Origin: Bacillota bacterium
Lineage (GTDB): Bacteria; Bacillota; UBA4882; UBA10575
Direction: 5' to 3'
NCBI GenBank assembly: GCA_012735135.1
Contig: JAAYHY010000040.1
Location: 1-46,777, forward strand
DNA length: 46,777 nt
Position 1 is the first letter of the stretch. Every line of letters starts with the position of its first letter. This document shows, in pieces, positions 32,995 through 45,924 of the stretch. Below the pieces are notes generated by a model. The model did no database searches and was not told the origin of the DNA. It was given only the letters and a program-made list of their open reading frames with translations. The position numbers and the translations under genes are program-made.

Positions 32995-35091
32995 TTATAC
33001 TTTAAAGACTTTAATGGCTTCCGCCAGCCTTTCCGCCATGAGGTTCAGGTTTAATGCCAACTGCTGAAGTTGGGCTGCCGTACTGGCCTGTTCTTCTGCG
33101 GCAGCGGATACTTCTTCCGCGGCGGAGGCGGTCTCCCCGGAAATAGAATTGATGGTCAGCATTGAATCGACCGAAGACTCTTTTAACAGATTCACTTGGG
33201 TTAAGTCGAGAGCTGCCTGATTAATCATAGTTACGGTTTTGTCCATCGCGGTGATAATTTCGGCAAAGCTATCATTGACTGTGGTTACGGCGGTAAAGTG
33301 TTCATCAACGATCTGGTGGGCTTCTCCCACATATTCGGCGGAAATTAAGGCTTTTTTCTGAATCCTGGATAAAATACTATTAATCATTTCCGCCGCTTTT
33401 TTCGATTGGATCCCTAAGTTATTAATTTCATCCGCAAGGACGGCAAAACCACGACCGGCTTCCCCCACCCGGGCAGCTTCAATGGCCGTATTAATCGCCA
33501 GAAGGTTAGCCCGTTCGGCAAAGCCAGTAATGGTTTCTGTGATTTTTTCAATTTCATTTGCTTCAATCGTCAGATCATTAATATTTTTGTAAACGAGATC
33601 GGTTATTTCCCCCGTTTCTTTCGCCTTTGTCAGCAATTGATTCATGGCCGATTGCGAATTAAGACTCAGTCTTTTCGTCGTGTGGGCTATCTCCTCAATC
33701 TCTCCCGTTCTTTGCATCATTTGATCAATTCCCTCGGCCAAGTGGAGAATTGTCGAGGAGGTTTTCTCAATCTCTGTAGATTGTTCGGTGGTTCCTCTCG
33801 TGATCTGCTCCATCGCAGTTGCAACCCCTTCCGAGGTTTGGGTTAATTGGTCCGCGCTTTGATTCATCAATTCACCAAGCTGGACCACTTGATCAACGGC
33901 TTTTTTCGTATCGATAATTAAAGCACTGAACTTATCAATCATCATGTTAAAGGCTTTTCCCAAGTAACCCAGTTCATCTTCGGAGTTGATATTCGTCCGA
34001 TGCCTTAAATCGCCATCTTCCGTTTGTTTCATGGTATTTACAACTTGGTTTAAGGGAACGGAGATCATTTTCGATAAGCGTCAAGAAAGAAGAAAAGCAA
34101 ATAGACCGGCGAAAATAAGGAGGAGAAAAGTTATCCAGCGCAACCATCCAATCTCTTTAAAAAGATACGCAACGGGGAAGACATTAAGGATATACCAGTT
34201 ATGTTCAAAAGGTTGATAAAAGAATAAAACTCTCGTCCCTTCCAAACTACTATAAATCTCATTTTGGTTCTTTTGGAAAGCAAGCGGTTGATGATTTTTC
34301 GTCAAGGCAGTAATTTTTTCCCCGACATACTCTTTAAAGGGAGCGGAGATTACTTGACCATCTTCGCTAAGTAACATGGAATATTTATTAATTTTCTTAT
34401 TGAGGGGACGATTATCCGCTTCACGATATAACTCGTGATTTAGTAATTGATTTAAACTCTCTTCCCGAAGAAAGATAAAAAAGGATCCTAAATTTTCGTT
34501 GGTTCCGCTTTTGGTAATTTTCCGCCCTACAATTATGGTGTTGACCTTTTCCTGGTTAATATCGGGCACCGGTAATAAGGAGGACCAAGCTAATTCATGG
34601 CGGTCAAGTTCTTCAGCATATTGCTTAAAAGCAGGGGTATCAATAAAACTTTGGGGAACCCGGTCTGATAAGTTATAAACTACCTTTTGTCCGGGATCGA
34701 GGAAAACCATATCAAAAATAAAATCATCACCATATTTAAAACCCGCCAAGTATTGAGTAAATAAGTTTTTCATATTATACCTTTCGAAAAAATGCGGACT
34801 GTTTACCATCAAATCAACAATATTATTGATTTCACTGTTGGCGATCAGCTGGAAAGAGATATCTTCATAGTTATCCAGTTTAACCTCAATGTTAACGCCT
34901 TTTTGGGCTAGACTTTCCCTGGAGTAATCCTTGATTTTGTTAATAATGGCATTCTTGGCAAAGAGATAGGTAACCCCTCCGCTAAAGGAAAGAGGAATTA
35001 ATGCAATCAGCAGAAAAAAGAGGATTAACTTATAATGGATGCTCAATTTTTGTAATATTTGGTAATTAATATGAAACATTCTCCGTTCCAA
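32995..35091 (-). pseudogene. Methyl-accepting chemotaxis protein interrupted by in-frame TGA
   Basis: Membrane chemoreceptor. Segments in order: N-terminal membrane helix (KLILFFLLIALIPLSFSGG), extracellular Cache-like sensing domain (about 50-310), second membrane helix (about 315-336), HAMP ([20 protein letters not shown]), and a C-terminal signalling domain with the tip [25 protein letters not shown] at 34083-34081 is codon 337, directly after FAFLLS and before RLSKMISVP, all in one frame. CGA to TGA is the simplest explanation. As read, receptor and signalling parts would be two proteins; an ATG at 34068 could restart the second. The TTG at 35091 with GGGGGTG upstream is the likely start. 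The full reading is 698 residues. Confidence 0.87.
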
Positions 35092-35521: not shown

Positions 35522-37438
35522 TTAAAAATAAGCCGCTCCTCCGCAAGTAATCCACGCGACAATCATCGCGGTAATTAGCGACCCAAGATATACCTTGCCT
35601 GTCTTACGGTAGAAATATGTCGCCACAAAAAACAGCACGAAAAACTGGGGAAAAATAAGGACAAGCGCGCTCATGAACGGGCCGTCGAAGATTGTAAGAC
35701 CGGTTAAAGCCCAGCCTGTCCCATAGCCAAGCAGAAAGGGAACATATTCAAAAAGCGCAACAATAACCAGACCACCCAGCATTACATAGATATTTTTCAG
35801 CCACCAGACCAGCTGTGTTTTCACCGGTGATTCATATTCCTTTAGGCGCATTTGCCCAAACAGTCTTACTCCTCCGTTAAACAGGAAAAACACCAGAAAG
35901 AACGGCAGGTATAACAGGAATTGCAGGAAACGGCCGGGTGTAAACGGGCGCAGGAAAGGCCAGATAAACCTGAGATCAGTATTGAAAAAGCGATAACCTA
36001 TTGTTGTTAAAGCATACAGCAGCCCAAACATAATAAGGGCCATCAGAACAGTCTTGCCTATTATTTTCCAATCCAACACCGTCTTTTCCCGTTCGAAAGA
36101 TAAACCCATGTCATACATTGTCACGCCAAGCTCTTTTCCTTCCCCTTTTTTATACCATCGGCGGAACAGGAAAAACGCGATGACAAACAGCAGATCCAGC
36201 CAGAGGATCAGTCCTCCGGCCATCAGGGTTTTGAAAAGACCATCCGGGTACGGGAAAAGGCCATGCCCTAACTGGGTCACAAAGGGATAAAAGATTGCGC
36301 TTAATAAAATGCTTGTGATCGCCATTTTATGCCAGCTTTTCTTCGGGGCCGTATACCTGTCTGGAAGCGGCTGGGCCACCGGAGCAAAGAATTTCGTCGT
36401 AAGCAGAAATGAACAAAGCGGCAACAATGAAAGGACCGCAGCTAACAAGGCAAGACCCATCAACAGTTCTCTTTGCATGTACACCAAATCCGACGGCGGT
36501 ATCTCCGGCACAACCCCGAGCGCGGTCGTAAACCATTCCATCGCGGTGGAAATCCCCTTTTTACTATGGGTAACTCCCCGGTGCACAGTATTCAAAAACT
36601 CCATGCGTCTGGCCGTACCATCGGCAAAGCTGCCGTAGGTTTTATTCCATTCAACCGGGGCATCCTGTCCGCAAAATATTTTATACCGCCATTCGCTTTT
36701 GTTCAAATTCTCCGTTGTTCGCCAATAATCCCTGAAATAGTCGAACTCGTCATATTTTGCTTGCAGAAGCAGTACATTACGAAAGGTAACATTGCCATCC
36801 CCATCACGAACAGGCCCTTCCACTTCTCCGCACTGAATCACGATGGCGGCATGTCCGGGATTTTCGGCGGCAACCGTATATGAACTCCATGTTCCCATTG
36901 AATGTCCGGTAATTCCGACTTTGTCCGCCAAGACATAGTCACGGGATTGAAGCCACCGGAAAGCGGCCGTTCCGCCCATTGAAGAATCAATTATCCCGTC
37001 AACTTGATCAAAGTTCAGGGTTGAAAAACTCATAAACATCTTAAACCGGTTCGGACCGGATCTGGATAAATCGTAACCTCTGTTCCGCATGCCAATTGGA
37101 TTTTCACCGTGGCCGAACTCGTCAATTGAAAGCGCGACAATTTTACGACGCGCCAGCTCAAGCGCAAAAGCAGCTGAAGTATCCTTGTCATTCTGATATC
37201 CATGCATCAGCAGCACTGCCGGAGCAGGGTTTGCGCTGTTTACTCCCTCGGGCAGGTAAAGTTTGGCGTGAATATAAGTTGATACCCCGTTGTTAGTCGT
37301 AATTGGGATCTTAATCTGTTTTACACTAACTTTTCCAAAATCACTTTCGATGTAGGAGGCAATAATCATTGATGCCACAGCTAAAAAAATACAAACAAAA
37401 AAAGCAATCAAGCTTTTAAATCTTTTTTTCTGCAACAT
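35522..37438 (-). CDS. Membrane protein with alpha/beta hydrolase domain and C-terminal multi-pass region
   Basis: 638 residues from ATG 37438 (GGGGGG upstream; an in-frame start at 37477 has no site). Order: N-terminal membrane helix (about 10-30), a hydrolase domain of the dienelactone-hydrolase type with LLMHGYQNDK, nucleophile elbow GITGHSMGTWSS and FGHGENP (about 60-330), then about eight membrane helices to the end. The domain should face the outside of the inner membrane. The substrate is unknown. I do not recognise a named family for the fusion. It is a single gene between the chemoreceptor and the envelope cluster. Confidence 0.8.
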   Translation of the reverse strand: MLQKKRFKSLIAFFVCIFLAVASMIIASYIESDFGKVSVKQIKIPITTNNGVSTYIHAKLYLPEGVNSANPAPAVLLMHGYQNDKDTSAAFALELARRKIVALSIDEFGHGENPIGMRNRGYDLSRSGPNRFKMFMSFSTLNFDQVDGIIDSSMGGTAAFRWLQSRDYVLADKVGITGHSMGTWSSYTVAAENPGHAAIVIQCGEVEGPVRDGDGNVTFRNVLLLQAKYDEFDYFRDYWRTTENLNKSEWRYKIFCGQDAPVEWNKTYGSFADGTARRMEFLNTVHRGVTHSKKGISTAMEWFTTALGVVPEIPPSDLVYMQRELLMGLALLAAVLSLLPLCSFLLTTKFFAPVAQPLPDRYTAPKKSWHKMAITSILLSAIFYPFVTQLGHGLFPYPDGLFKTLMAGGLILWLDLLFVIAFFLFRRWYKKGEGKELGVTMYDMGLSFEREKTVLDWKIIGKTVLMALIMFGLLYALTTIGYRFFNTDLRFIWPFLRPFTPGRFLQFLLYLPFFLVFFLFNGGVRLFGQMRLKEYESPVKTQLVWWLKNIYVMLGGLVIVALFEYVPFLLGYGTGWALTGLTIFDGPFMSALVLIFPQFFVLFFVATYFYRKTGKVYLGSLITAMIVAWITCGGAAYF

Positions 37439-37575
37439 AATACCCCCCAATCCACTTGATTCTGTTTCCATTACCAAAGATATGGTTGGGTTATCCTTGG
37501 ATGACGCCGGTGAATCAAGACAAATGTAAATTTATTTTAAATTTATTTTATCATATAATAGAAAAAATTGGAAGA

Positions 37576-38913
37576 CTAAAACCCCACGTTCGTCTGAATC
37601 TTCACCTGCTTCTGCTCTGCCAATAGACCGAACTCGCTTTCTCTTTTTCCATAAGGAAGCTGTACACCAAAGGAAAGGGAGAACAAGTCCCTTTCGTAAC
37701 TGAGGAGAAAGATGGCCAGGCCGCTTTCGTCCACCAGATTTTGAATGACGATCTGTTCCAAGGCCAAAGCCGGCAGTAACTCATTACAAAATCTGGCCAT
37801 CGCATAGTGACGGAGAAGACCCGGAAAACCTGCCTCCGCTAAAAAGGCAGTCGCCTTTTGCAGCCTGGCGCCCACCAACGGATAATTCTGTACTTCCAGC
37901 GCCAGTCTGCTGTTGGCAGTCATATATTGTAAAACCTTCCCCCATTCTTTTTGGGTCAAGCCGGACCCGTTAAAGAAGTATTCAACGATTAGATTCCCCC
38001 CGCCGGCAAAGGTGTAATGCCCCCCCAGCAGCGCTTTAAGGCTTCCTCGCTCAGCCGTCGCCATGAGCGGGGGCGGAACGGCCCCCGTTTCTTCCTCCAA
38101 AAGGGCATAGAACAGTTCATTAAGCTGTTTAACATGATTTTCTTCCCATTCTTCCCAGCCCATTTCACAATGGGTTTCCAACCGGTCGCCCCAAACTCTG
38201 GCCAGACTCAAACCGGTCCTCCACTGTCCGCGATAGGAGATGAGACCGCAAAGATCTAAACCGGCGAACCCGCCGCTCACCATCGCCCACGTTAGGGCAG
38301 TTTGCTGCGGAGAACCTATGTATCTCCAAAGGAACCCGTCCCCATTTTCCGCCCATTTCAGTTGGGGCGCCCACCCCACCTGCATGGTCAGACGGGGAAA
38401 AAGGTATTCACCCCGAATTAAGACCTTGCCTTCGGGAGGCGCTCCCCGATCCTGCATAAAAGTGGACTGTTCCGGCCATAATCCTGCCGGGTTTAGAAAA
38501 TAGCCGGTGCCGGCGCAAAGCACTTGTTTGCCCAGATCGACAAAGCAATCATCCAGAGGGTTCATGGAGAAATATAACTCATTGAGCCGGTTATTCAACT
38601 CCGGTCCATTCCGGTCAAGACGTAACCGCACTGTATCGGCGATGAAAAACCGTCCGCCGTTATCGAACAACCACTCTCCTTCCCCGTTCAGGAGAAAAAC
38701 ACCGGTTAACTCTGGTTCCTGCTGTAATATCGCTCCCGGATTCATGAGGGACGGCACCGAAGGAAGAGAAAGTCGCCAGTAGTTCTGGATGGAAAAAGAG
38801 GTGTTGCTCACCGTCAGTCCAAGACAACCGGAAGGAGCCGCGACCAAGAGACCAAGTCCCAACCCTAGGGTCAAAAGGACATGCCGGAGCGAACAGGGGT
38901 TGACCTTACTCAT
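37576..38913 (-). CDS. Predicted outer-membrane beta-barrel protein, last gene of an envelope cluster
   Basis: 445 residues with a signal peptide (about 1-32). The C-terminus is NVGF: a terminal Phe, the usual beta-signal for insertion by the BAM complex. The body has alternating hydrophobic residues, Gly and aromatics, for example NELYFSMNPLDDCFVDLGKQVL and GTGYFLNP, as in outer-membrane proteins with a short plug-less barrel of porin or export type. I do not recognise an exact family. It follows the LolA-like gene by 20 bases. The GTTGACC sequence before the start contains no clear ribosome site, so translation may be coupled. Confidence 0.7.
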   Translation of the reverse strand: MSKVNPCSLRHVLLTLGLGLGLLVAAPSGCLGLTVSNTSFSIQNYWRLSLPSVPSLMNPGAILQQEPELTGVFLLNGEGEWLFDNGGRFFIADTVRLRLDRNGPELNNRLNELYFSMNPLDDCFVDLGKQVLCAGTGYFLNPAGLWPEQSTFMQDRGAPPEGKVLIRGEYLFPRLTMQVGWAPQLKWAENGDGFLWRYIGSPQQTALTWAMVSGGFAGLDLCGLISYRGQWRTGLSLARVWGDRLETHCEMGWEEWEENHVKQLNELFYALLEEETGAVPPPLMATAERGSLKALLGGHYTFAGGGNLIVEYFFNGSGLTQKEWGKVLQYMTANSRLALEVQNYPLVGARLQKATAFLAEAGFPGLLRHYAMARFCNELLPALALEQIVIQNLVDESGLAIFLLSYERDLFSLSFGVQLPYGKRESEFGLLAEQKQVKIQTNVGF

Positions 38914-38933
38914 CAGCTCACCCTTCTCTTCTT

Positions 38934-39734
38934 TTATTTGATGGGCACATAGGTGAAACGGGGCAGGTACTCTTTACGGTAATAATTCGCCGGCAAGCTT
39001 TTTTCAGCCAGCCGGATATATTTCATAACCGTATATTTTTCAGATTGTGTGCCGTCACGGATGGTCACCTTCATCGCAACCGGCTTGCCGAATACTGTCT
39101 GGTATTCCTGGTATGCAATGCTCTTCAACAATTTCCCGCTGCGGGCATAAAACTCCCCGGCGACCGGCAAAGAGGATTCTTTATCTACCCACAAGAGGAT
39201 CTTCTGATAGTTTCCGCCTCCATTCTCCCGTGCTTCCAACAGGAGACACCAGTGATCCGCCGATTCCCCGTCCGGCAGAAAGCGGCATTGATAAGCAGAG
39301 GAGAATCCTATCTGCAATATGTCGCCATTGGCCACTTCACCCAAGAGGATTTGAATCGGTGAGAGCTTAATCACATTTTTGGTCTTTGGGAAATGCATCC
39401 AGACCTCATCCCCGCTCATCAGCATTTTTTGCCCGTTCACCTTCGGCGGCTCCAGAAAGTAGAGGAGAGTTTGGGCTTTTGCTTCTTCGATCCGGACATA
39501 GCCGGCCAAAGTATACCGGTCGCTCACCTCCCCATTCTGATAAGCCGTAATCTCCATTTCAAAGGCAAATTGGGGCCTTAACACCCGGTTCTCATCGACC
39601 CGCCGTAGAATCTCCTGGGCTGTTTCCGCTCTTGCTCCGCCAGTCAGGTTTATCGAGAAACATAGAAAAACACCGACCAGCAAAACCCGGCCGAACTTGT
39701 TCCGCCCGGATCTCCGCCATCCCGAATGAACCAT
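38934..39734 (-). CDS. LolA-like outer-membrane lipoprotein-sorting protein
   Basis: 266 residues, signal peptide ending near ARAE without lipobox. The mature part starts TAQEILRRVDENRVLRPQFAFEMEI and contains YVRIEEAKAQTLLYFLEPPKVNGQKML, MSGDEVWMHFPKTKNVIKLSP and DGTQSEKYTVM, the open-barrel pattern of the LolA-like family that travels with FtsX permeases. Family members carry lipids or lipoproteins across the periplasm. AGGAGAAGG lies before ATG 39734. It is 213 bases downstream of the permease gene, with no gene between. Confidence 0.83.
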   Translation of the reverse strand: MVHSGWRRSGRNKFGRVLLVGVFLCFSINLTGGARAETAQEILRRVDENRVLRPQFAFEMEITAYQNGEVSDRYTLAGYVRIEEAKAQTLLYFLEPPKVNGQKMLMSGDEVWMHFPKTKNVIKLSPIQILLGEVANGDILQIGFSSAYQCRFLPDGESADHWCLLLEARENGGGNYQKILLWVDKESSLPVAGEFYARSGKLLKSIAYQEYQTVFGKPVAMKVTIRDGTQSEKYTVMKYIRLAEKSLPANYYRKEYLPRFTYVPIK

Positions 39735-39947
39735 CGGCCTTCTCCTTTCGATAATAATATGGACAAATATAAATACTTCTCATTACTCATGGGGATATTT
39801 TTCTTGAGTCGGATCTCCCCAGCCGGGGACAGATGGTCTCCCTCCGGACGACTTGATTTTTCACCGGAAGAAAGCGATCCCTTTGGCCCCGGCGGAGAAT
39901 GTTGATGGACGGGTGGTAGCCAGTATGGCCATCGCCAGTGTGGACGA

Positions 39948-41180
39948 CTACAAAAAACGTAACGCCTCGGCAATCTTTAAATTTGCCCCTTTATACGCTG
40001 GGTAAAGCGAAGCCAGGACCGAGACCGCCAACGCTAAAAGGAGGTTTTGCCAGACCGTGACGGACGAAGACGCAAAAAAGGCTTGGTAACCTTCGGCCAT
40101 GCCCGGCGGGGGCGGTATATAGATCCCGCCGAAGAGATTATTGATCAAGGAGGAAGCAATAAGCCCCAGCAAAACACCGCTGATTCCACCAAGCAAACCG
40201 ATCCAGAGTCCTTCCGCTATATAAAGCCGGATAATTGCGCCTTTTTGCGTGCCAAGAGCACGGAGCGCGCCAATCTCCCGGGTCCGTTCCAAAACTGACA
40301 TGGTCATGGTATTAATAATCGTAAAGATCACCACCAGCATGATGATGAAGCGAATAATTTGTAAGAGCGTGCCATAAAAGCCCTGCACTTGCTGGTAGTA
40401 ATCGGCCAGTTCATCCCAGGCCTTAACCGCCAGCGGTTGACCGGATTGGCCGTTAAACGCTTGGGTAATAATCTCCTTGACTTGACCGGTATATTCGGTC
40501 CTCTCCAGAACGGTAATCAACAAAGGGACACTGGTAATATCCAGAAATTCCATGGCGGTCGGCAGATCCATAAAAACCTGCATGTTGTCGAGCTCCCGTA
40601 AACCGAGGGTGGCAATGCCGACCACCTCCAGATCGGCGGCGTTCAATCCACCGTTTCTGGTGATCGCCATCATCGTCATTGTATCGCCAATCTTGGCGCC
40701 GATCTTTTCCGCCACTCCCCGCGCCAAAATCACCCGGTAACGGTCTTCAACCTGCAGATCCCGTCCTTCCACGATCTGGCGGAAACTCAAGAGCGAACGG
40801 GCAAGTTCAACCGGGACCGCCTGCACCATCACAATGCCCGATTTTTCCGCGCTCGCCAAGGTCGCGGAGAAAGTCACCTGCGGAACCACATTTTTCACCT
40901 CCGGAAGGGCCTGCAGTTTACTGATGATCGCCTCTTGGTCGGTGAAAAGATAACGAAAAGGGTCAAAATTACCGGTGGTGAAATATTCCTCCGCCGTTGC
41001 CAGTTGCAGATGGCCAAGGCCGTTACGAATGGTTGATTCCTGCAGCCCCCATAAGGTGTAACGGACAAAGCCGTCAAAGAGGACCAAAGCCATAATTCCG
41101 ATCATAATCGCCGTTAAAGTAAATAAAGTCCGACGTTGGTTCCGGAAAATATTCCGCCAGGCCAAAGATAAACTCCTCAT
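39948..41180 (-). CDS. ABC transporter permease, FtsX/LolC/MacB family
   Basis: 410 residues. One N-terminal membrane helix (TLFTLTAIMIGIMALVLFD at about 18-36), a large periplasmic MacB-type domain (about 45-270), then three C-terminal helices around 275-400 ending in the FtsX domain. It contains the cytoplasmic-side motif VLERTREIGALRALGTQKGAII near residue 290, characteristic of lipoprotein exporters. The ATG overlaps the ATPase stop by four bases (ATGA), so translation is coupled. Confidence 0.93.
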   Translation of the reverse strand: MRSLSLAWRNIFRNQRRTLFTLTAIMIGIMALVLFDGFVRYTLWGLQESTIRNGLGHLQLATAEEYFTTGNFDPFRYLFTDQEAIISKLQALPEVKNVVPQVTFSATLASAEKSGIVMVQAVPVELARSLLSFRQIVEGRDLQVEDRYRVILARGVAEKIGAKIGDTMTMMAITRNGGLNAADLEVVGIATLGLRELDNMQVFMDLPTAMEFLDITSVPLLITVLERTEYTGQVKEIITQAFNGQSGQPLAVKAWDELADYYQQVQGFYGTLLQIIRFIIMLVVIFTIINTMTMSVLERTREIGALRALGTQKGAIIRLYIAEGLWIGLLGGISGVLLGLIASSLINNLFGGIYIPPPPGMAEGYQAFFASSSVTVWQNLLLALAVSVLASLYPAYKGANLKIAEALRFL

Positions 41181-41860
41181 CCCTCTTCCTCCCTCACAAT
41201 TAACCCGTCGCGCAAGTACAAAACCCGCTTCATGTAGGAAGCGACCATCGGGTCATGGGTGGCAAGGATAAAGGTGGTTTTCTCCTTTTCATTCAGCTCT
41301 TTCATCAATTCCAAAATCGCTTTTCCGGTGCTTTGGTCCAGGTTACCGGTGGGTTCATCGGCAATGACCAGTTTCGGTCCGGTAATGAGCGCCCGGCCGA
41401 TCGCCACCCGTTGCCGCTGTCCGCCGGAGAGCTCATCCGGACGGTGGTCTTTGACCGCAGTGAGTCCCACCGCCGCCAGCATCTCTTCCACCCGCCGCCG
41501 CCGCTCTTTCTTGGCAATGCCTTGTAAAACCAAAGGATACTCCATATTTTCAAAGGCGGTTAAGACGGGAATTAGATTAAAGGACTGAAAGATAAAACCC
41601 AAGGTTCTACTCCGGAAAGCGGCTAACTGCCGGTCACTCATGTTCTCTAAATCCCGGTCATACACAAAGACCTTTCCCCGGTCGGCAAAGTCGATCCCGC
41701 CCATCAGATTGAGCAGGGTCGTTTTCCCGCTCCCCGACGGTCCCATTAAACCAATCATCTCTCCTTCCATCAGTTGCAAGCTAATCCCGTTCAGCGCCGG
41801 TGTCGTTGTCTTTCCCAGCTTATACTCCTTATAAACCTGCTCTAAACTGACGACAACCAT
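41177..41860 (-). CDS. ABC transporter ATPase, LolD/MacB type
   Basis: 227 residues with Walker [11 protein letters not shown]-loop [10 protein letters not shown], signature [15 protein letters not shown], Walker [13 protein letters not shown] and the switch His in [12 protein letters not shown] and the FNLIP pattern fit the LolD/MacB/FtsE group. It drives the permease encoded directly downstream and overlapping. Substrate is not known. Confidence 0.95.
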
Positions 41861-41872
41861 CCCCCCCTCCCT

Positions 41873-42661
41873 TCATCCCGCAAACAACTCCAGAAGCGCT
41901 TTGGCCTGGGCGCCAACCTCACCCGCCGGATCAAGTTCGTAGGCTTTCCGCCAGTAAGCGATCGCTTCTTCGATCTTTTTTTCTTTCTTATAGTAATTGC
42001 CTAAGTGTAGGTACACGGAAGGCATAATCCCGCTGGGGATCCGTTCCGGCTCCCGGGAGTACCACTGTTCCAGCCTTAAAAAATCTTCAACGGCGGTCTT
42101 TTCCCGTTTAAAGAAGGCGGGGAGGGCAATCCCGACGTTGGCGCGTAACAATAAAGGATAATAAGAATTTTTTCCGTAATTTTTGACAATGGTATCTAAA
42201 TATTTCAGTCCATCTTTAACCCGTTTTATTTTGGTCAGCGGGTTTGTCGCCTCACCACCAGCCAGCGCCAGACTGGAGCCAAGATAGGCCCCGCTGATCG
42301 GCCGGAGCTCTTCCGGTAAATCCGGATGATGATAGAGCCTGGACAGGATCTCCGCCGCTTTTTCGGCATAACCGCGGTATCCCTTTTCCGCGCCGTTTAA
42401 GGAAAGATTATGGTAAAGAATGCCCACCCTTAAGGCGGATAAAAATTCTTCCGGCGCGAGACTCCCCGGAGAAAACAGTCCGCTTAATTCTTCGCTCTTC
42501 CGCAACAAAGTGTCCGGATCGTTGCAACCGGCGTCAGCCAGGAAAAAGACCTCATAGGCGCTGAGTTGTTTTTGGTCAAGGGCCAGTATTTTACCGGAAA
42601 ATACGACCAGGAAGATTCCGAAGACTATGGTTCTCCAGAATAAGGTTCTCTTTTTACACAT
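41873..42661 (-). CDS. Secreted TPR-containing protein
   Basis: 262 residues. Start set at ATG 42661 (GGGAG upstream); a start at 42682 is longer by 7 residues. It has a basic N-terminus, a signal peptide (to about 28, SGKILALD) without lipobox, and several TPR-like helix pairs, of which YLHLGNYYKKEKKIEEAIAYWRKAYELDP near the C-terminus is the clearest. The family of its N-terminal part is not recognised. It lies 12 bases upstream of the ATPase gene and should sit in the same envelope operon, perhaps as a periplasmic adaptor. Confidence 0.75.
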   Translation of the reverse strand: MCKKRTLFWRTIVFGIFLVVFSGKILALDQKQLSAYEVFFLADAGCNDPDTLLRKSEELSGLFSPGSLAPEEFLSALRVGILYHNLSLNGAEKGYRGYAEKAAEILSRLYHHPDLPEELRPISGAYLGSSLALAGGEATNPLTKIKRVKDGLKYLDTIVKNYGKNSYYPLLLRANVGIALPAFFKREKTAVEDFLRLEQWYSREPERIPSGIMPSVYLHLGNYYKKEKKIEEAIAYWRKAYELDPAGEVGAQAKALLELFAG

Positions 42662-43051
42662 CCGTCCGACTCCCTTCTTCATTCTGTTTTAATTAAAAGA
42701 TTTCATCGATGCCAAAGAAAACTTCATTGCCGCCTTGCCGATTCCACCCCATTTCTAAGCGGAATTGCCGGCCAGCGGTCGGGGTCGCTATGATGACCCG
42801 CTCCCCAAAAGGTTTTTCTGGTTTTTATAATAAAAAGGAATGACTTAAAATTCATCCGACTTTCGGTCGTTTTTGGCCGGAGAAAAGCAGGAGGAAAATC
42901 TCCTTCGCAAGGAGGAGGTCTTTTTAACTGAAAGGACCAGATTATTGGGATAGATTCGGGAAGGCAGAGGATAGAGGAAGAGTTTTCCGCAGGGGGTGGT
43001 GAAAGGAAAATATTTGCGGGGACTCAACCGGAGAAAGGAGGAGGTGGAAAC
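42662..43051. other. Intergenic region between the TPR gene and the kinase gene
   Basis: About 390 bases without a complete gene. It contains a 43-codon open stretch on the minus strand (see 42693-42824) and a hairpin CTCCTT / AAGGAG at 42900-42914. On the minus strand ATTTTCC follows the hairpin, a possible weak terminator of the two-component operon. No promoter is clear. Confidence 0.45.
42693..42824 (-). pseudogene. Possible C-terminal remnant of a barrel-type protein
   Basis: A stop-bounded open stretch of 43 codons lacks a start codon and ends in Phe. Its residues (GERVIIATPTAGRQFRLEMGW, GNEVFFGIDEIF) alternate in the way of a beta-hairpin and resemble the end of an outer-membrane barrel. 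It follows directly upstream of the TPR gene. It may be a fragment of a decayed gene or chance. Confidence 0.25.
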
Positions 43052-44119
43052 CTAACAAGAAGGGCCGGAAGGGCTTGACAAAGGAATCTGTACGGTTATG
43101 GTAGTACCCTGACCAAGCCTGGAATGGAGGAAGAAAGCGCCGTTTAAGGCCGTAATCCGTTCTTCCATGCCAACAAGGCCAAAATGGCCGGTGCTTTTCG
43201 TTTGACCAACGTCAAACCCGTGTCCGTTGTCTTTGATTGTAACTAATACCTCTCCGTTGTCTTGGATGGTCAAACTGACTTCAGCTTTGGTTGCTTGAGC
43301 ATGTTTGACAACATTATGCAAAGCTTCTTGGATCACACGGTATAAAGCCAGCTGGATTTGGGGATCCACTTGCGTCTCATCCCCGCTGATGTGTGAAATG
43401 ATCTCCAGTTTATAGCGGGTCTGAAAGAGCGCATAGAGGGCTTCCAGGGCTTCAAAGAATCCTTTTTCCTGTAAAATAGCGGGTTGCAATTCATAAATCA
43501 TCAGCCGCATTTCCCGTTGGGCTTCTTCCACCATCTCTTTAACCTGTTCGATCAGGACTTTGGCTCTTTCCGGTTGCGTCTGGAAGATCAAGCCCAATGT
43601 GTTCAGGTTAAGGCTGATCCCAAAAAGGCTCTGGGATACGGAGTCATGCAATTCCCTGGCAATGCGGTTTCGCTCTTCAATCACCGCCAGTTCTTTATTT
43701 TTTTGCTCCAACCGGAGCCGTTCATCCTTGAGGTAAAAATATTCGAAGGCCAAGCAGATCATCACCGAGATGATCCCTACGCCCAGACTAGTCCAGAAAG
43801 CGATCAGCCGGGAAGGAAAGAATGACCAGGGTAATATAGTTACGGGCAGGGCAGCGAGGAAAAAAGTCAATGTGCATACCAAATAGGCCTGGAGCATTCT
43901 TAAGGAAAGGTGTTCATTGTAGACCTGAAAACGGGAGAAGAACTTTTTAGTCGCTAAATATGAGGAGGAAATGAGAAACCCGACCACGAGACCAAAAATA
44001 GTGTAGGTGAGGAAAGTAGGTAGCGGACAAGGAAACCCTTCGATGGTCAGCATGAACATGAGCGCGATGCCGATCCCGATTAGTCCGCTCAAGGCAGGGA
44101 TTCTCGTTTGCTTCTTCAT
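43052..44119 (-). CDS. Sensor histidine kinase, NarL-type (HisKA_3)
   Basis: 355 residues from ATG 44119 (GGAGG upstream; a longer frame begins at 44137). Two membrane segments occupy most of the first 130 residues. HisKA_3 follows with ERNRIARELHDSVSQSLFG (phospho-His), then the N box EALHNVVKHAQAT and DNGHGFDVG, HFGLVGMEERI. It pairs with the regulator at 44191, 71 bases upstream. Organisation resembles LiaS or DegS kinases. It has no recognisable extracytoplasmic sensor domain, so the signal may be sensed within the membrane. Confidence 0.93.
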   Translation of the reverse strand: MKKQTRIPALSGLIGIGIALMFMLTIEGFPCPLPTFLTYTIFGLVVGFLISSSYLATKKFFSRFQVYNEHLSLRMLQAYLVCTLTFFLAALPVTILPWSFFPSRLIAFWTSLGVGIISVMICLAFEYFYLKDERLRLEQKNKELAVIEERNRIARELHDSVSQSLFGISLNLNTLGLIFQTQPERAKVLIEQVKEMVEEAQREMRLMIYELQPAILQEKGFFEALEALYALFQTRYKLEIISHISGDETQVDPQIQLALYRVIQEALHNVVKHAQATKAEVSLTIQDNGEVLVTIKDNGHGFDVGQTKSTGHFGLVGMEERITALNGAFFLHSRLGQGTTITVQIPLSSPSGPSC

Positions 44120-44190
44120 GGTCTGTCCTCCAATCAACCAAGAATCTGAATCTAAACCGGTCTCAGGCGGTTCAGTAATTTTGCTTTAGC

Positions 44191-44814
44191 CTAAACCAGT
44201 TTCAGGTTAATAGCTTTGATTACCGCTTGGGTCCGGTCTTTGACTTGTAATTTCTGAAGAATACTACTGACATGAGTTTTAACAGTTGTCTCGGAGATGT
44301 ATAGTTCGGCGCCAATTTCTTTGTTGGACTTACCTTTAACCAATTCCCGCAGGACCTCTTTTTCTTTGGCGGTCAAAGGCTCAACCGCCGGCTTATCCTG
44401 GCGAACCTGTTGCATCAATTTTTTAGCGATCCGGGGATGGAGAACAGGTTCGCCGCGCTGGGCGGCTTTGACGGCCGCCAACAGTTTTTCCGGCGGGGAG
44501 TCTTTCAGTAGATAACTTAATGCTCCGGCATCGATCGCCGCGATAATCTCTTCATCCTCACAAAAACTGGAGAGAATAATCACCTGGGTCCGTAACTGAC
44601 TTTCTTTTATGACTTTGATAACCTCCACCCCACTCATCCGCGGGAGATGAAGGTCGATGATGGCCACCTCCGGATCCAGTGTTTTCAGCGCCGGTAAGGC
44701 AGTTTCCCCATCCCCCGCTTCTCCGACGATGCGGATCTCCGGATCAGTACTGAGATAGGTCTTGAGTCCTTCCCGGACAAAGGGATGGTCATCGACGATA
44801 AAGACGCTAATCAT
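44191..44814 (-). CDS. Response regulator, NarL/FixJ family
   Basis: 207 residues from ATG 44814 (TAGGTGA 6 bases upstream; a longer GTG start at 44835 lacks a site). The receiver domain has the phospho-acceptor Asp in VAIIDLHLPRMSG. The C-terminal LuxR-type helix-turn-helix contains KGKSNKEIGAELYISETTVKTHV. It is the first gene of the pair; the target regulon is not evident. The esterase gene is divergent from it. Confidence 0.95.
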   Translation of the reverse strand: MISVFIVDDHPFVREGLKTYLSTDPEIRIVGEAGDGETALPALKTLDPEVAIIDLHLPRMSGVEVIKVIKESQLRTQVIILSSFCEDEEIIAAIDAGALSYLLKDSPPEKLLAAVKAAQRGEPVLHPRIAKKLMQQVRQDKPAVEPLTAKEKEVLRELVKGKSNKEIGAELYISETTVKTHVSSILQKLQVKDRTQAVIKAINLKLV

Positions 44815-44931
44815 TAAATCACCTACTCTTGTCACTCGTGTAAAAATTTGACACCAATAGACGATTGTGATATATCTGATATTAATATGATATAAATAAA
44901 CATAAAAGTCAATTTTTAGAGGAGGATGACT

Positions 44932-45924
44932 TTGGAACCAAAGCGCCTGTTGCTGGTTTTTATTTTCTTGTTATGTTTATTTCAAATCAACGCGTTTGCC
45001 GAGGAAAACCGCTTAATCACCGTCCAGATTCCGGCTCCGTCTTTACAGAATAATCTAGTGGGAGAGGCACTAAATCAGCTCTTAGTGATCGCCCTCCCAC
45101 CATCCTATTATTCCTCAGACCAATGCTACCCGGTGGTATACTTTTTACATGGTTTTGGCGAATCGCCGCATAATGTCGGACTGTTCGCCCGGCTTGCCGA
45201 TTCCCTATACGAAGAGAACCAGCTTAATGAGATGATTATTGTCGGAGTTAACGGTACTAACCGACTGGGTGGCAGTTTCTATGTTAATTCCCCAGTCACC
45301 GGTAATTGGGAAGATTTCGTGGTTAATGATGTCATCGGCTACCTTGATCAAAACTACCGGACCCTTCCCCAAAGTTCTTCCCGGGGAATCGCCGGATTCT
45401 CCATGGGCGGGTTTGCCGCCATCAATTTGGCCTTCCGGCATCCCGGTGTTTTTAGCGTAGTATATAGTTTAGCGCCGGGGTTATTTGATGAAAACGGTTT
45501 ACCACAAGCGATGACCACTTGGGATCAGAGATTCAGAAACGCTTACGGAGCAGCCTTTTCTCCCAACCCCAACCTCCCTTATCCTCATAGTGAAATCCCG
45601 GTCCTGGATAACTCGGCCGATGATAACCGGATCAAGGCTAATTGGGAAAATGGCTTTGGTAACCTTGAGCAAAAAATTGCTGATTATTTATGCAGAGGAA
45701 TAACACTAAAGAGTATCCGGATCGAAGTTGGGGAGCGTGATTACTATAAATGGATTATTAATGGTTGCCTTTATTTTTCTCAGTTATTAACGGAGCAAGG
45801 GATCCCCCACGAGCTAAACCGTTTCTCCGGAGGGCATACCTTGACCAGTAGTTTAATTGAAAAAAATATTTTGCCCTATTTTTCCCAGCAATTAGAGAGG
45901 ATGAACTCCATCACGAATAACTAA
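44932..45924 (+). CDS. Secreted putative esterase (esterase D / Fes family)
   Basis: 330 residues. I choose TTG 44932, six bases after GGAGG; an ATG at 44926 abuts that site. A signal peptide (about 1-23, INAFAEE) precedes a carbohydrate-esterase-like hydrolase: YFLHGFGESP (oxyanion), nucleophile GFSMGGFAA, acid region, and His in GGHTLTS. Relatives include feruloyl and acetylxylan esterases and S-formylglutathione hydrolase. Given a secreted form and a sugar importer elsewhere, a polysaccharide ester is plausible but unproved. It is divergent from the response-regulator gene, with a 117-base gap that may contain the operator. Confidence 0.88.
   Translation: MEPKRLLLVFIFLLCLFQINAFAEENRLITVQIPAPSLQNNLVGEALNQLLVIALPPSYYSSDQCYPVVYFLHGFGESPHNVGLFARLADSLYEENQLNEMIIVGVNGTNRLGGSFYVNSPVTGNWEDFVVNDVIGYLDQNYRTLPQSSSRGIAGFSMGGFAAINLAFRHPGVFSVVYSLAPGLFDENGLPQAMTTWDQRFRNAYGAAFSPNPNLPYPHSEIPVLDNSADDNRIKANWENGFGNLEQKIADYLCRGITLKSIRIEVGERDYYKWIINGCLYFSQLLTEQGIPHELNRFSGGHTLTSSLIEKNILPYFSQQLERMNSITNN

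Follow-up and report, generated by a model that had tools for sequence, protein, structure and literature searches.

The closest described counterpart of the locus reported here is the BBJ23-29 cluster of Borrelia, for which transport of a non-polar ligand was proposed in 2026 on the basis of structure models; its BBJ26/27 pair has the same layout with a single FtsX permease (PMC13078400). Analogues with LolA-type carriers and a resistance-nodulation-division (RND) motor, such as AmeABCD of Castellaniella and the aryl polyene exporter ApeLMN, move apolar molecules (PMC6394551, PMC8253772). In the localization of lipoproteins (Lol) pathway, LolC and LolF recruit LolA through the Hook, and LolE has a full-length Hook without LolA binding (PMC10865981). 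LolDF systems can work without Lnt and are common, so a single FtsX in place of LolC/LolE is already known (PMC11784454). Here, a five-gene operon is described from a stretch of 46,777 nucleotides of a Bacillota bacterium (assembly GCA_012735135.1, contig JAAYHY010000040.1; our contig C159), called the window. It encodes a secreted tetratricopeptide repeat (TPR) protein, a LolD-like ATP-binding cassette (ABC) ATPase, a single FtsX permease, a LolA-like carrier and a predicted outer-membrane beta-barrel. With a probability of roughly 0.6, this cluster is an exporter, ABC-driven and regulated, that takes a lipid or another small amphiphile across the envelope.

Like BBJ23-29, the window combines a secreted TPR protein, a LolD-like ATPase, a single (presumably homodimeric) FtsX and a LolA-like carrier in one cluster (PMC13078400), and both permeases fall in one set of the permease tree (27 rows; support of 98-99 in the Shimodaira-Hasegawa-like approximate likelihood ratio test, SH-aLRT), the Borrelia branch being long. 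Unlike the window, Borrelia has an Omp85-type protein; Omp85-like genes do occur in one relative (G009) and in some sister clusters. The window has a barrel of the DUF1302-like group instead, together with a kinase/regulator pair; Borrelia has no two-component pair. AmeABCD, too, couples a LolA-superfamily carrier and an inner-membrane exporter to a dedicated barrel of DUF1302 type (PMC6394551); for the barrel, this likeness consists of a match by profile with DUF1302-like barrels (E 9.4e-11), the window barrel having no direct Pfam match. The Ame motor is of the RND HAE3 type and its carrier is DUF1329, whereas the window has ABC-FtsX and PF17131; in this genome, two sister modules have MMPL motors. 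ApeLMN likewise has a LolA-like carrier and its own dedicated transporter, encoded in a biosynthesis cluster of fatty-acid type (PMC8253772), but it has an RND motor and a LolB-like partner, and a dedicated barrel is not listed. With MacAB-TolC, the window shares an FtsX/MacB_PCD permease, an ABC ATPase and an outer-membrane exit. However, its cluster contains no MacA-type adaptor or TolC-type channel gene, with a LolA-like shuttle and a porin-like barrel in their place, and a MacAB assignment was therefore rejected.

All five open reading frames (ORFs) are on the minus strand, in the transcription order TPR, ATPase, FtsX, LolA-like and barrel. The TPR and ATPase genes are 12 nt apart, the ATPase and FtsX genes overlap by 4 nt and the LolA-like and barrel genes are separated by 20 nt. 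The single direction given in a preliminary description of this DNA is thus correct, but the 213 nt between the FtsX and LolA-like genes do not fit the overlaps or short gaps it mentioned. Promoter pattern matches were near the shuffled expectation, and a terminator scan likewise gave no usable signal. The five-gene order, for which that description had suggested looking in relatives, is kept in four other metagenome-assembled genomes (MAGs; G004, G007, G009 and G014) at 52-90% protein identity, with 62-80% for the TPR protein. Chance co-location was rejected based on this synteny across five genomes. The kinase/regulator pair (43052-44835, minus strand), which had not been included before, is situated upstream of the TPR gene in the window, G004 and G007, and downstream of the barrel in G009 and G014. 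Since it is present in all four relatives at either side, the pair moves with the cluster. The full cluster is absent from 11 of the 16 family genomes searched, and in the close relative G003 the locus has decayed to LolA-like and barrel fragments; the cluster is therefore an accessory locus. A permease search of genome contigs retrieved only the four known relatives and distant FtsX matches, which says little on its spread.

Export of a lipid-like product, rather than lipoprotein sorting, is the more probable function because an Escherichia coli plasmid carries homologues of the five genes within a biosynthesis cluster of fatty-acid type. This plasmid, G8, encodes homologues of all five window proteins in identical order, with identities of 29% for the TPR protein (E 1.6e-18), 50% for the ATPase, 35% for FtsX and 33% for the LolA-like protein; the barrels match weakly in a pairwise comparison (E 7e-5) and at E 1.8e-25 by profile. 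The surrounding genes encode a short-chain dehydrogenase/reductase (SDR), an acyl carrier protein, a FabA/Z-like dehydratase, a ketoacyl synthase, a FeeM-type N-acyl amino acid synthase and an enoyl-CoA hydratase. On this IncK2/Z plasmid, the exporter is thus enclosed by what looks like a biosynthesis cluster of N-acyl amino acid or fatty-acid type; 2 of 5,426 E. coli genomes carry it. Using the window permease and carrier, a tblastn search of plasmids found FtsX adjoining a LolA-like gene in Escherichia, Rahnella, Klebsiella, Enterobacter, Vibrio, Plesiomonas, Aliiroseovarius and others. Ketoacyl-synthase or polyketide synthase-like clusters contain the Rahnella, Enterobacter, Klebsiella, Aliiroseovarius and Paraburkholderia copies, with a ketoacyl synthase at 3.6-5.2 kb in the first four. 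The Enterobacter operon includes a small protein with weak TPR matches, and the Paraburkholderia copy adjoins SDR, cytochrome P450 and phosphopantetheinyl transferase genes. The permease tree agrees with the exporter reading: the set of the window permease comprises other single-FtsX permeases, including biosynthesis-linked ones, as well as four permeases of two-FtsX loci. As a guess by analogy, these proteobacterial neighbourhoods and the RND-driven systems (AmeABCD, ApeLMN and an MMPL-LolA/porin pair that responds to a long alkane, PMC6304351) hint at fatty-acid-derived small molecules as cargo.

Four points weigh against the exporter reading. The window cluster has no adjoining biosynthesis genes, and its cargo link is made by homology only. 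The Vibrio and Plesiomonas copies have their own kinase/LytTR pair and are not in biosynthesis clusters. The permease tree was made with a quick method, with SH-aLRT as its only support measure and with some long branches, including Borrelia. Finally, the permease is nearest to LolE and LolF among solved structures. This last result makes it reasonable to say that the system works like Lol, but not that it is Lol.

Another possibility might be a true, divergent Lol pathway of the LolDF type, in which an FtsX homodimer would extract lipoproteins for the LolA-like protein to carry and for the barrel to insert or expose. The LolD-like ATPase, the FtsX homodimer layout and the LolA-fold carrier match LolDF plus LolA (PMC11784454, PMC10865981), relatives are annotated as lipoprotein-sorting protein, and the nearest solved permease structures fit as well. 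However, the carrier belongs to another family, and a TPR protein and a barrel are added. The ATPase reached 239 bits against the LolD model TIGR02211 (NCBIfam; cut-off 307.75) and the permease 120.7 bits against the curated LolCE model (NCBIfam; cut-off 362.45), so both missed. In the tree, LolC, LolE and LolF form one set (SH-aLRT 100) apart from the window permease. The Hook stretch has 4-5 fewer residues than that of LolC/LolF in nearly all of the module permeases that were inspected; by itself this says little, since its sequence varies and LolE has the length without binding LolA (PMC10865981). PF03548 LolA had no match in the genome, in a search that recovers LolA in the E. coli control, and Lnt was not found in the genome either. 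Given also its accessory nature and five parallel modules in one genome, a divergent Lol pathway is rather improbable. A housekeeping Lol was rejected, as LolA and Lnt were not found and the distribution is patchy. From the route for lipoproteins or lipids between inner and outer membrane that had been proposed earlier, the ATP-driven route is retained, whereas lipoproteins are no longer the likely cargo, in view of the LolA and Lnt results, the permease position and the accessory locus. The parts of the supposed partly undescribed system, with one FtsX and a dedicated TPR protein and barrel, are likewise supported, but the single FtsX is not in itself new, as seen in LolDF and BBJ26/27.

An efflux or tolerance pump for external hydrophobics (fatty acids, alkanes, terpenes, antimicrobials) would have the same mechanics without a dedicated, self-made cargo. 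The adjoining two-component pair is of a membrane-sensing type, other modules of the genome are under TetR regulators, and deletion of AmeABCD reduces monoterpene tolerance (PMC6394551). Nevertheless, the nearest permeases outside Bacillota are in biosynthesis clusters, and such a pump seems unlikely. Next, lipid uptake was considered, a retrograde transport in which hydrophobic nutrients would enter through the barrel and be taken inward by the carrier. MacB/Lol-type ABC transporters are exporters, and the association with biosynthesis clusters also argues for the outward direction. Although DUF1302/DUF1329 proteins of P. putida are required for growth on Tween 20 (PMC10866462) and Thalassolituus induces an MMPL-LolA/porin pair on n-C28 alkane (PMC6304351), uptake is very improbable here.

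The preferred reading is export of a lipid or other amphiphile. Sequences or models show the gene identities, their order and conservation, the barrel fold and the homology of all five genes to those of an operon enclosed by lipid-type biosynthesis genes. In the proposed mechanism, the membrane-embedded sensor kinase and the LuxR-type regulator would switch the operon. The permease would act as a homodimer in the outward direction, and the periplasmic TPR protein might help hand-over or assembly. The LolA-like protein would shield the acyl part across the periplasm and deliver the cargo to the dedicated barrel, which would release it into or through the outer membrane. Solved structures related to the carrier are 3buu, 9tp6, 3bk5 and 4z48.

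The host genome is 2.56 Mb in size and 99% complete, with Hydrogenispora sp. and Bacillota MAGs as nearest named relatives. One contig bears Omp85/BamA, OmpH, LpxD, LptF/G and LptC, and an adjoining 733-aa protein without Pfam match is probably LptD. Because of this outer-membrane gene set and two Spo0A C-terminal domains in the genome, the host is considered, from its genes, a lipopolysaccharide-type diderm and a probable spore-former, in line with the spore-forming, outer-membrane-bearing host assumed earlier. A role of the cluster in assembling other barrels was dropped, with BamA being encoded separately.

For the barrel, an AlphaFold model from 5 close sequences was uninformative (predicted local distance difference test, pLDDT, 28), whereas a model from 48 homologues has about 18 strands (pLDDT 71.7, predicted template modelling score 0.68), so the barrel supposed from the sequence is also predicted by structure modelling. 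The two findings that the preliminary description had named as counting against it, a genome lacking outer-membrane genes and a barrel not modelled as one, are thus both contradicted. The best PDB matches are MOMP, OmpU, OccAB1, AlgE and OmpM1, with modest template modelling scores of 0.3-0.5; the predicted fold class is therefore clear (general porin, AlgE, OprD or OmpM-like) but the subtype is not. The DUF1302-like barrels matched by profile (hhalign 97%) are those adjoining MMPL transporters, and some of these barrels are DUF1302. The terminal Phe mentioned in the preliminary description is present in the window barrel but not invariant, as Leu ends two orthologues.

This genome has five strong PF17131 copies, each in its own module (Table 1). 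A survey covered 65 LolA-like loci from the class and 36 from other parts of the phylum, mostly in draft MAGs, with neighbours scored by home-made profiles from this genome and a simple ORF caller. Of the 69 interior loci (at least 3 kb from the stretch end), 64 have a related barrel beside the LolA-like gene as well as a transporter, either ABC-FtsX or MMPL; one of these barrels was called from length and terminal residue alone. In the class set of 808 ORFs, all barrel matches (52/52) lie at most 4 genes from the LolA-like gene. PF17131 was found in 40 of 199 genomes sampled across the phylum. Since ABC-FtsX and MMPL modules both keep the carrier and the barrel, the inner-membrane motor can be exchanged around a constant pair of carrier and barrel. 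A single FtsX occurs at twelve loci of the class, of which five are of the window type and seven are sister loci; a kinase, usually with a regulator, adjoins nine of the twelve. In five sister loci, a protein of about 265 aa precedes the ATPase; the three scanned are all TPR proteins, without demonstrable homology to the window TPR protein beyond one shared repeat. Some single-FtsX loci have Omp85/ShlB-like genes; those of the sister loci give weak matches and are related to each other. In G009, an Omp85-type gene (Omp85 E 2.8e-7, weak POTRA match) precedes the TPR gene.

LolA-like genes in this lineage thus belong to many parallel transporter-carrier-barrel modules, so that finding one beside FtsX genes says little in favour of lipoprotein sorting. 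According to the literature, diderm Bacillota make their outer membrane without Lol, a Halanaerobiales cluster excepted (PMC11784454, PMC5007114). That proposal was based on LolA homology, two LolC/E-like permeases and LolD (PMC5007114, repeated in PMC11784454). As the two-FtsX modules found here have the identical part list plus a barrel, it deserves re-testing. A wider reading is possible, at somewhat less than even odds: single-FtsX, TPR-assisted LolA-like/barrel operons would make up a single class, spread horizontally among Bacillota, Pseudomonadota and Spirochaetota, of ABC-driven exporters that bring lipids or natural products to the outer membrane. On this reading, the cluster of LolA plus LolCDE that had been regarded as the first Firmicutes Lol would be a two-FtsX member of that super-module, not a lipoprotein sorting system. 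With the E. coli plasmid version, which lies in a compact lipid-type biosynthesis cluster, cargo and mechanism of the class can be tested directly in a laboratory strain, and the unexplained Borrelia cluster can be interpreted in its light. On a Borrelia sp. plasmid, the ATPase, FtsX and following genes are present. In Borrelia sp. RT5S, SagB, SagC and YcaO-like genes (azole-peptide biosynthesis) come after the export cluster.

Table 1. Coordinates of the operon, its neighbours, the parallel modules and related loci.
Feature	Position	Strand	Description
Barrel gene	37576-38913	-	DUF1302-like group, ~18 strands predicted, C-terminal Phe (...VGF); no Pfam or NCBIfam match
LolA-like periplasmic carrier	38934-39734	-	PF17131, 119 bits (cut-off 30), E 1.8e-34; N-terminal signal-like segment
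FtsX permease, single	39948-41180	-	PF02687 + PF12704 (MacB_PCD)
LolD-like ABC ATPase	41177-41860	-	PF00005
Secreted TPR protein	41873-42682	-	PF00515/PF07719; signal-like N-terminal segment by hydropathy, no lipobox
HisKA_3 sensor kinase	43052-44137	-	PF07730 + PF02518; 4-5 hydrophobic segments (hydropathy), no other sensor domain
LuxR/NarL-type response regulator	44191-44835	-	PF00072 + PF00196; probable operon regulator
Alpha/beta-hydrolase	44926-45924	+	
Alpha/beta-hydrolase	35522-37477	-	
Chemoreceptor	32995-35091	-	Sensor half and signalling half
Module C58	L020:2797-8717		TetR-ATPase-FtsX-FtsX-LolA-barrel
Module C87	L021:6995-12350		LolA-ATPase-FtsX-FtsX-barrel
Module C29	L022:3247-8507		TetR-(MMPL+LolA fusion, 1044 aa)-DUF1302 barrel
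Module C32	L023:6322-10530		TetR-MMPL-LolA, cut by contig end
Omp85-type gene, G009	L028:10589-11938	-	Precedes TPR gene
E. coli G8 plasmid cluster	L154:11878-25180		Biosynthesis cluster enclosing the exporter
Borrelia sp. RT5S genes	L151:10405-12939		SagB, SagC, YcaO-like

Signal peptides were called from hydropathy alone. For the TPR gene, an alternative start at 42661 is an ATG conserved in relatives, and the PF00515 match of its product is a single repeat barely above the cut-off. Alpha/beta-hydrolase genes lie on both sides of the operon. The one on the plus strand is retained next to the G007 cluster (81% identity), and the other has no counterpart near the orthologous clusters. In the chemoreceptor further along, the two halves are separated by one in-frame stop near 34082, which may reflect a recent pseudogene, a sequencing error or two genes.

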